The position numbers were made by a program, and so were the translations under genes. Source: Jaapia argillacea MUCL 33604 (lineage: Eukaryota > Basidiomycota > Agaricomycetes > Jaapiales > Jaapiaceae). From it: a stretch of 38,556 nucleotides of DNA. The stretch spans positions 1-38,556 of the forward strand of contig KL197714.1 in the NCBI GenBank assembly GCA_000697665.1, given 5' to 3'. Shown one piece after another: positions 30,429 to 34,178 of this stretch; positions within the stretch are counted from its first letter, which is position 1; the number at the start of each line of letters is the position of its first letter. The notes beneath the pieces were generated by a model that ran no database searches, was not told the DNA's origin, and saw only the letters and a list, made by a program, of their open reading frames with translations.

Positions 30429-32449
30429 CAAGTAGCCGCAAGGGTCTGATAGTATGAAACTTTGGGTGAGCTTCATTGTCATTTCTATTAGAGTTGTCGA
30501 GTCATTCGTCGGCTTAGGAATGGCTCTTCTCTTAGCTCCTTTGAGTTGCATGGGAACCGCGATGAGCAATACCTCAAAGTCTTCCTTAATCGTCATTCCA
30601 TCTGGTTTCAAGTTCTTAGGTTTGCGATGAGCGAAACTCCTTCCCTCCTGCCTCGTACCGGTGCAGGAGCCTTCTATGTCGGGATTGTCATCGGTTCGAT
30701 GTATGTCTTTCCTCTCACACATCGATCTCTACTGACTCGAACGTTCATAGACTTTTCGGGATCACCATTCTCCAAGTGTACCTATTGTAGTCGTGGGTTT
30801 GCTGACGGTTTACTGCTGAAACTATCTGTATGTGTCTGTCATCTTTATCCGGACCCTATGAGCACATTATATTTTATCGCAGGTGGCTGCGCTCTGGTAC
30901 GAACAACCTTAATGCTTCGGAACCCGTTATTTACCACAGCTTCATCAGTTTCCTGGACGGACTTCATCTTGTCTTCGTCGTTCACGTTGGCTACCATTAT
31001 CTCATCGTTGATGTCAACGACCCGGAGGTCCTGGAAGAGGGCTTTTGGTGAGTCAATTCCTTCAGAGACGTCCGATATTTGATTAACAAGGGATTCAGGA
31101 GTCTCCAGGTCAGTAGTTTCCTGCTTTTATATGGTTCACTTCTGACTAATGACTAGGCTACACCCATTGCTCGGGTATGAGTGCCTGAGATTTTTTGTAG
31201 AGGAACAACGCTCAAGCACATTTGTAATTCCAGATTCTCGTTGCTCGCCTGGTACAATGGCAAGTACACAACATCATAACGGTAGAACTCAGCCACTGAA
31301 CAGCAACAACGTTAGCATCTATCTAGGCAGAATCTGGCGGAGTATGTGTGCACTCCCCGTACACCTGTTTCGATTGGATATTGAATTCTCACAGTGCTAT
31401 CCAAAGCCATTGGAAAATCTCGCGGACGCTGTCTTATGGTAGAAAACTCTCACTGGCACTAACACTGACCCAGATACTTTTCTAACATTTTCGTAGATAA
31501 TCACCGCCGTCATAGCAGCTTCCTCGTGTATAGGTTGGCCTTTTCCACGCATCTACAATACCGGTCGCTCACTACCAGATTTCCCAATTTTCCCGATTTC
31601 CAGCCGCCGGAATAGGTAAGATAACATAGTTTTCTTGGAGTTCGAACTGTGGACTACACTTCTCTGGATCTATCAGTGGTTATTGTTGCTCTGTGGGTGT
31701 CACTTCCATTACCTCCGACCGGAGATTAACCCCGCTCATGCGGCGCCACGGAAAGCGATGCTAGCACACAGTTTCGTGGGGTGAGTTTGCTGGCCGAAGG
31801 CAGCTTGGTTTCTCCCCTTAAATTTCCCATCGCAGTGGCCGGGATGGCTGGAATTCACCTCCTCCGCTTTTCTCGATTGTTGTATTACCGGTAATTCTAT
31901 CTCATATATTCTGAGCATGGTATCAGCAACGACTAATGTTCGCTTTGCCTCCGTAGTCTTGATGATCCTAGTCCTTCGCCGAGGCTTGAACGGAGGCCAA
32001 AGGTTTGTCTGTTCAAATTACTTGCTAGTAGCATCTCGTCAATGTCCCATCTAGAATGAAGACTTTGGCATCCACCCTCATCCAATACGCAATTGCAAGT
32101 GGACTTGTTACTAGGTGCGGTAGGGCTTCGTATCGTGATATCATAACGGACGTATTGACCAGCACCGTCTCATCAAGCGTGGCTTGTGTGACCTACCTGA
32201 TATTGGTGGGTAGAACAGTCGCACGACACCCTAAGCCATCGTCTGATAGTACTTGTTGACAGTATGAGCAAGTCAAGAACTCCTTTGCGTACGGTGCCAT
32301 GGAGGCGATTGTCAGCAGCTGTGAGCCCGCATCTGGTCGTCCTGTCCACCGGAACCTAACGGGTCACACAGTGTACGCGAACTCTTTGCTTGTCATGTAT
32401 GGGACGCACTCCATGACTTCGACTCGGAGTCTATTCTGACATCAATCCA

Positions 32450-32458
32450 GGTTAAATG
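32450..32458. repeat. Target-site duplication, left copy
   Basis: GGTTAAATG borders the left terminal inverted repeat and recurs exactly at 34170-34178. It covers the last base of the intron and the first eight bases of DUF6534 exon 18. Confidence 0.85.
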
Positions 32459-32710
32459 CAGGCTCCTTAAACCATCCGTCGCTACAGCGTTCTCGCTCCT
32501 TCATCCGAGGGCAAGATGGTGATGTGGCAACTTTGTTTGTACATATGTATAGAATTACTATATTAGGCTGAACAAGAGGAGGAGAACGCTGTAGGACGGC
32601 TGGCACAAATGGTCATCCGAGGATTCGCCGATCGACGAATATGGTGTCTGAGTCAGCCAACGAAACGTTGAATTCGTGTCGAAACCCCAGCTGGATAACC
32701 TCCACTCAAG
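32459..32710 (+). repeat. Left terminal inverted repeat
   Basis: 252 bp matching the reverse complement of 33909-34169 with a handful of mismatches, a 1-nt indel and one 8-nt deletion near 32692 (caattcgt is absent here). Confidence 0.9.
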
Positions 32711-33908
32711 CTCACTATCCTAGCATCAACGCGGGGGTGAGCATACTCAGATACTGATCATCGTGAGGTCATAAAAACATCAAAATACCCATATGATTAA
32801 AGTATAATCAATTATCTACCAAGATTTCTGGTCAATACGGTGTACAATCAAAAGGCGAGAGTTAACATGGTCCGGGAAGTGGGGGGTTGATTTGAAGAAG
32901 GGCTCAAGCGGGTGCGTTTGGCAAATTGGAGCGTCAATCGGGAGGATGGATAGCTTATCACACCAAGCTTTGGGAGAATTGAGAATGGGAAGGAAAGGGA
33001 TTGAGCATAACGAGTGTGCAGAGGGGAAGGTACTGGAAGTGTGACAGATGCGTCAATAATCCCTCGTCAGACTCAAGGATGCATGGATCTTCCGCGCCAA
33101 TTACACCTGTCCACCAACGCTCGAGATTTGCAGCGGCAAAATACTTGTGATGTCTTGACGCGGTCTGAAGCAATTATGACGAGAAGCTAGACTTGCAGGG
33201 AGAAAAGCAGGTTTTCACCGACAATGTAGATGCCGTTGATCCCCGTGGGTTGGGCAGGAATTGTTTGCGAGCGGACGAGTTGACGAGAAATCGGAACTGA
33301 CCGAGGCACGAAGATCCCCACAATCAGAGACCCAGGTAGCCAGGGTTGGGTAACAAGAAATGATATAGCAGGAAGGGAGCTGATGCCTTGTTGTCGACCA
33401 GCCTGACGTCTCAAATCGGCGAGGATACTTCGACACCGATATCGTGCCCTCTGCAACACCTCCAGACAAGTCAATCACCATCTCTCCAGTTAAAACAGCT
33501 AGATGAAGAGGTCCTGAAACCTATACTGATCCGGGTGGGATTTGGCATCGTTCGATGTTTTGATATTGACCGAAATGCCGGGGCCTACGCCATTAGGTTC
33601 AGTTCAGTCTCTTGACAGACCGAGTGGTTGCCACTGCTTGATGAGACCGAGGCCATGGACATCCGAGAACAAGACCCTCACACTCGAGATCGGAGACATG
33701 ACAGTTCAAAGCAGAATTTTGAGATCGATAGAAAGCGGCATCGGAAGGCGAGGTGAAGTGATATGGCATGGAGTAGCTACCACAGTGGGGCCGCAGGTTC
33801 AAACAAGCTGGCGGGATGTGGTAAACTGGCGAGATGCGGTAAACAAAGAATGAACGAAGACACATAAACCCGGAGCAAAAGTGAAGCGAGAGGACGAAGT
33901 GTTGTTGT

Positions 33909-34169
33909 CTTGAGTGGAGGTTATCCACGAATTGAGCTGGGGTTATCGACACGAATTCAACGTTTCGTTGGCTGACTCAGACACCATATTCGTCGATCGG
34001 CGAATCCTCGGATGACCATTTGTGCCAGCCGTCCTACAGCGTTCTCCTCCTCTTGTTCGGCCAAATATAGTAATTCGATACATATGTACAAACAAAGTTG
34101 CCACATCACCATCTTGCCCTCGGATGAAGGAGCGAGAACGCTGTAGCGACGGATGGTTTAAGGAGCCTG
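33909..34169 (-). repeat. Right terminal inverted repeat
   Basis: 261 bp, the inverted counterpart of 32459-32710. Its inner end reads cttgagtggaggttatcc on the plus strand. Confidence 0.9.
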
Positions 34170-34178
34170 GGTTAAATG
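34170..34178. repeat. Target-site duplication, right copy
   Basis: GGTTAAATG, identical to 32450-32458, immediately before the resumed DUF6534 exon 18. Confidence 0.85.

Follow-up and report, generated by a model that had tools for sequence, protein, structure and literature searches.

An element inserted in the modelled last exon of a probable host gene

The window (the whole stretch of 38,556 nucleotides that was analysed) harbours an element of 1,711 bp between two copies of a perfect 9-bp duplication, GGTTAAATG (Table 1), as a preliminary description of this DNA had stated. The ends of the element read CAGGCTCC...GGAGCCTG. Its terminal inverted repeats (TIRs, or arms) were described as nearly identical and about 250 bp long, and the alignment agrees: the arms (252 vs. 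261 bp) differ by three substitutions, a 1-bp gap and an 8-bp gap. Repeat finding returned 237 nt at 97% identity and 19 nt at 100%, with the 237-nt call extending 7 bp into the duplications at each side. The preliminary description had also read recent movement from the arm identity, and this was not shown. Because the two arms are mobilised as one unit and may differ from the outset, their identity gives no insertion date; dating on this basis was rejected because the arms are not identical by origin.

No recognisable transposase frame was found in the 1,711 bp, as had been proposed. None of the five frames that lie inside the interior or overlap with it has a Pfam match, and the longest stop-to-stop frame inside the element is 125 aa. 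The interior (1,198 bp) matched only itself in a search of the same genome, and no match was found to the interiors of four other copies of the family (C3, C22, C4 and the short C14 copy). Consequently, the arms are a property of the family and the middle is not. The idea that the window copy arose from the C3 copy by simple internal deletion was rejected, as the interior is single-copy and has no match in C3.

The element interrupts a probable DUF6534 gene, entering its modelled last exon after the first 8 nt. When the flanks are joined and the modelled GTATG...CCAG intron is taken out, the last exon is open to its end; the duplication overlaps this intron by one base, its first G, which closes the intron's AG. 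The claim that the reading frame resumes past the right duplication therefore stands once the modelled intron is removed. The host peptide was modelled with two introns removed (modelled, not annotated) and with the upstream exons left out. It matches DUF6534 over profile positions 26-80 of 80 with an E value of 5.3e-4 and 21.5 bits, under the curated cut-off of 28.2 bits; the position in the last exon was retained in our model, and the name DUF6534 given to the gene earlier is probable. In the modelled frame of the occupied site, 37 arm-derived residues follow '...SLLVMLN' before a stop. The insertion, at the end of the DUF6534 domain, would thus replace a 65-residue C-terminal tail by 37 residues read from the arm, and the domain would stay nearly whole, since the lost part is the tail only.

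Table 1. Features of the element and of the modelled host gene (positions in the window).
Feature	Position	Strand	Basis
Host-gene coding stretch upstream of the insertion, in frame continuously from 32056	32131..32205	+	model, not annotation
Host-gene penultimate exon	32263..32396	+	model
9-bp target duplication GGTTAAATG, left copy	32450..32458	.	sequence read
First 8 nt of host-gene last exon, cut by the element	32451..32458	+	model
Putative non-autonomous AcademH-like element, 1,711 bp	32459..34169	+	repeat finding, arm alignment, flanking duplication
Left TIR, 252 bp, start CAGGCTCCTTAAACCA	32459..32710	+	arm alignment; also in other copies
Outer 13-bp motif CTACAGCGTTCTC, left arm (arm position 24)	32482..32494	+	motif scan
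Inner inverted motif copy, left arm (arm position 124)	32582..32594	-	motif scan; pairs with outer copy in predicted single-strand fold
Interior, single-copy in genome, without Pfam match	32711..33908	.	genome search and Pfam scan
Right TIR, 261 bp	33909..34169	-	arm alignment
Inner inverted motif copy, right arm	34034..34046	+	motif scan
Outer 13-bp motif, right arm	34134..34146	-	motif scan
9-bp target duplication GGTTAAATG, right copy	34170..34178	.	sequence read
Remainder of host-gene last exon up to the stop codon	34179..34375	+	model

Copies of the family in the genome

Copy counts come from a search of the element's own genome (43.7 Mb) and are lower bounds. The left arm has at least 14 matches, both window arms among them, and the terminus CAGGCTCCTTAAACCA occurs exactly at least 16 times. 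Allowing up to two mismatches, the terminus gave 45 matches vs. 33 for a reversed control pattern; inexact matches are thus mostly due to chance, and for this reason an inexact end entered the count only if a second end accompanied it. Both ends of the family, exact or with up to two mismatches, are present at eight places, and a perfect 9-bp duplication flanks six of them: the window element, three copies that share its long arms (C3, GGGTGGTGG; C22, TTTAAAACC; C4, CCCCAGACC) and two further copies (C4:1321607, CCTGGGACG; C3:1183491, GCCTAAGTC). Eight of the nine duplication bases agree in the C42 copy, and no target duplication was found at the short C14 copy. Searching with the left repeat, as the preliminary description had suggested, thus recovered further copies that share these ends and have duplications of 9 bp, on whose existence its reading of the locus depended.

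Approximately 170-230 bp of arm are common to five of the eight copies (window, C3, C22, C4 and short C14). The copies C4:1321607 and C3:1183491 have only the outer 40-55 bp in common with the other five, plus a weak inner 50-bp match. The interiors of the C22, C4 and short C14 copies are related to one another, and parts of them are also present at C27, where a ninth copy (378376-387717) is split, with both ends in the same orientation and a Ty3/gypsy-type element (named by eye from its frames) between them. The flanks of this copy, agatagact and ggtctatct (read backwards), agree at eight of nine bases, i.e. the duplication is inverted, and the interior pieces have opposite orientations, which would fit an inversion of part of the element subsequent to its insertion.

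Relatives encoding DUF6589 and a helicase

The C3 copy (1071141-1077258, 6,118 bp) has 264-bp arms that are 97% alike, and the outer 173 bp or so of these are 92-94% identical to the window arms. Six ORFs were scanned in this copy, and only two products gave matches above the cut-off: DUF6589 (E 4.5e-45, Pfam scan) and, convergent with it on the opposite strand, a helicase (DEAD, E 4.6e-7) whose closest solved structures are RecQ and WRN. There are in-frame stops, one inside the helicase frame and one upstream of the DUF6589 core; unless introns account for them, the C3 copy is probably inactive in its present form. The DUF6589 frame at C12 also has in-frame stops. For the autonomous partner that the preliminary description considered possible, a coding relative with shared ends was found; an active one was not shown, given the stops.

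A second, different family is represented by the C14 element (572971-578850, 5,880 bp), which also encodes DUF6589 and a helicase (DEAD domain), with 45% and 47% protein identity to the C3 pair. Its 202-bp arms are 98.5% alike, are flanked by a perfect 9-bp target-site duplication (TSD; CGCTGTGGT) and are the only such pair found in the genome. The C14 helicase has one relative among contigs of a viral collection, encoded on IMGVR_UViG_3300028454_000087, with 35% identity over query residues 15-91; a single DUF6589 protein had no match in the viral contigs.

Genome-wide, DUF6589 has 23 matching stretches at 12 loci. Seven loci were matched with a piece of the C3 helicase (219 aa) as the query, each no more than 4 kb from a DUF6589 match, and six of these seven pairs are convergent. 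No helicase match was found at the remaining 5 of the 12 DUF6589 loci. At C35:182868-188755, DUF6589 and the helicase are divergent, unlike the six other pairs. The window itself contains a DUF6589 fragment (306-1601) split over frames; contig C6 starts at window base 1, and the upstream part of this fragment falls off the contig. The C3 helicase had no match in the window.

Inverted repeats were examined around six of the pairs (C3, C14, C12, C87, C13 and C40; C35 was left out) and are present around all six, long in five cases and of 39 bp at C40. They measure 180 bp (95% identity) at C12, 173 bp (94%) at C87 and 206 bp (81%) at C13, where several other inverted repeats make the boundaries doubtful. 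No 9-bp duplication was found at C87, C13 or C40. At C12 the left end is of the family type and the right outer end is lost, so there is no assessable duplication. Stretches of N occur in the flank of C3 and inside the C12 element (866 N).

The DUF6589 core differs at codon positions 1/2/3 by 0.30/0.20/0.63 between C3 and C12, and by 0.45/0.33/0.67 between C3 and C14; the helicase differs by 0.42/0.29/0.64 between C3 and C14. The third-position excess in the DUF6589 core is as expected under protein-level selection. Two motifs stand out in this protein: a G-D motif whose D is invariant in five rows and, upstream of it, a D-N motif kept in most rows, C21 excepted. These residues may be catalytic. 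The DUF6589 profile gave nothing significant against solved structures (best E 0.5). In the literature search no paper naming DUF6589 was found, and its accession PF20231 appeared in a single paper, on an unrelated matter.

A paired 13-bp motif in the arms

All of the 17 arms compared (this family plus C12, leaving out the two C42 arms and the lost right end of C12) carry a 13-bp motif that begins at position 24 and is repeated in inverted orientation 99-125 bp inward (positions 123-149). The two copies match on average at 12.59 of 13 bases, compared to a median of 7.53 over 70 start positions, and none of 200 shuffles of one arm gave 13 matched bases. The matches range from 11 to 13 bases: 11 in the left arm of the short C14 copy and 12 in its right arm, both C27 arms and both C3 arms. 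No motif pair was found at the C42 ends, the best pair of the long C14 element was only 9/10, and the C87 and C13 arms have no such pair (one unrelated 9-bp match at C13). At C40 there is one 13-bp pair, outside the arm match and on one side only.

The motif is CTACAGCGTTCTC in the main subfamily, CTGTCGCGTTCTC in C4:1321607 and C3:1183491, and CTATAGTGTTCTC in C12; outer and inner copies are altered together between these three subfamilies. Seven distinct motif pairs were compared, in which 88 of 91 cells (96.7%) pair, with G-T counted as a pair; four of the 13 positions changed on both sides and eight are invariant. For these seven rows, 0 of 500 shuffles reached the observed covariation score, and 146 of 500 reached the number of pair types. 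When the partner was slid by +3 columns the covariation score was the same (0.224 vs. 0.223), but 57% of the cells were paired vs. 97%. Homogenisation between copies could mimic selection on the motif pair, and seven related rows are few.

In the predicted fold of single-stranded DNA, the motif pair forms a stem and the pairing extends at one or both sides. Fold z scores were -4.2 and -4.3 for the two window arms, -7.8 for C4:1321607 and -6.6 for C3:1183491. Two arms were also folded on shorter stretches, ending before or within the inner motif, and scored -0.37 and -2.45 (-7.8 and -6.6 on the longer ones). The left arm of C12 gave a z of -2.2, with 4 of 200 shuffles equally good. The hairpin is a predicted stem, and the prediction does not imply single strands in the cell.

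Classification of the element

AcademH is said to be the helicase-encoding lineage of the Academ superfamily, a description attributed to Kojima in 2020. AcademH elements carry terminal inverted repeats. Excerpts of the literature give AcademH a TSD of 9 or 10 bp and AcademX one of 3 or 4 bp (PMC10045372), describe DEAD/recQ helicase domains in fungal Academ copies, often annotated as host genes (PMC6416283), place AcademH at low copy number in Basidiomycota, Ascomycota and Mucoromycota (PMC10799480) and report putative non-autonomous Academ insertions in Marasmius oreades (PMC8290104). In our genome, a TSD of this length was observed in six of the eight family copies and in the C14 element; a superfamily II helicase is encoded by the C3 and C14 elements, the window copy being without it; the candidate for the DDD/E transposase of Academ type is DUF6589, with the G-D and D-N motifs described above; and inverted repeats bound the window, C3, C14, C12, C87 and C13 elements, with 39 bp at C40. 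The window element is probably a cut-and-paste DNA transposon, non-autonomous and of AcademH-like lineage (probability of roughly 0.8). The likeness is to published descriptions of AcademH. Against it stand the lack of a demonstrated catalytic fold in DUF6589, a TSD in only two of the six gene-bearing elements, the stops in C3 and C12, a C3 interior unlike that of the window copy, and the 5 of 12 DUF6589 loci without a helicase.

The elements with DUF6589 and a helicase might instead be a separate superfamily that came to resemble AcademH by convergence, both in the length of the TSD and in having a helicase. DUF6589 is unnamed in the literature searched and AcademH was compared by description, which leaves room for this view; as the AcademH descriptions agree on every point readable in the excerpts (helicase, 9 or 10 bp TSD, Basidiomycota), we consider it unlikely. 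It overlaps the AcademH-like reading, and the probabilities of the readings do not sum to one.

Less likely still is a KolobokH-type element, i.e. a fungal DDE transposon with a RecQ helicase. Kolobok elements target TTAA. The duplications here are of 9 bp, and TTAA is present in two of the six perfect ones and absent from that of C14. Excerpts of PMC9587614 describe KolobokH as having a RecQ helicase and occurring in fungi only, with the helicase downstream of the transposase domain, while it is on the opposite strand in our elements; the order of the genes is by itself no sufficient argument against Kolobok, since the same excerpts place the RecQ helicase of a red-algal Kolobok on the complementary strand, as here.

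The smallest probability goes to the Mutator-like element of the preliminary description, a non-autonomous copy moved by a MULE transposase with 9-bp duplications and long arms: both features are present, yet they are not specific to MULEs; the three MULE-domain loci found in a six-frame genome-wide search lie neither in nor near the copies (no MULE locus has one of the 45 end matches listed, with 0-2 mismatches, or one of the 14 arm matches within 100 kb), so that no MULE transposase flanked by the repeat emerged; and the sole gene-bearing copy with these arms, C3, encodes DUF6589 and a RecQ-like helicase and has no MULE match. MULE and Academ are both named as sources of non-autonomous insertions in a fungal genome in an excerpt of PMC8290104. 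The Mutator call is corrected here to AcademH-like, and an element with long TIRs and a 9-bp TSD can be misfiled when its gene-bearing partner is missing.

Proposed mechanism and comparison with known systems

Under the AcademH-like reading, the DUF6589 protein would act as transposase: it would recognise the ends, perhaps through the outer and inner 13-bp motifs, and would cut and join DNA with a 9-bp stagger; the helicase may aid end unwinding or the processing of intermediates. The window copy, having no genes, would have used proteins supplied from elsewhere when it entered the probable DUF6534 gene. More tentatively, and with the odds rather against it, DUF6589 may be an unrecognised transposase family accompanied by a RecQ-type helicase, acting on ends with family-specific inverted 13-bp sites; these sites would co-evolve, the reason being either that both are bound by the protein or that the end forms a hairpin after unwinding by the helicase, and the arms would be kept around unrelated single-copy interiors. 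DUF6589, a Pfam family of unknown function, is hereby linked to a helicase-bearing transposon lineage (7 of 12 loci in one genome), and the arms offer a concrete and testable candidate for a recognition site or hairpin.

Among known systems, AcademH resembles our elements as a fungal DNA transposon with a helicase gene and a 9-bp TSD, a comparison made by description; DUF6589 as candidate transposase, and the 13-bp motif pair in the arms of this family, are features described here. MULEs have long TIRs, TSDs of 9-11 bp and non-autonomous copies, and are alike in these respects; they are unlike this family in that no MULE domain was found with its ends, the partner genes being DUF6589 and a RecQ-like helicase. 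KolobokH is similar as a fungal DNA transposon with a RecQ helicase, and differs in its TTAA target (9-bp duplications here) and in the strand of the helicase. Finally, like MITEs and long-TIR non-autonomous elements, the window element is without coding capacity and presumably depends on proteins in trans, but it is set apart from them by its 1.7 kb length, arms of about 250 bp and single-copy interior.
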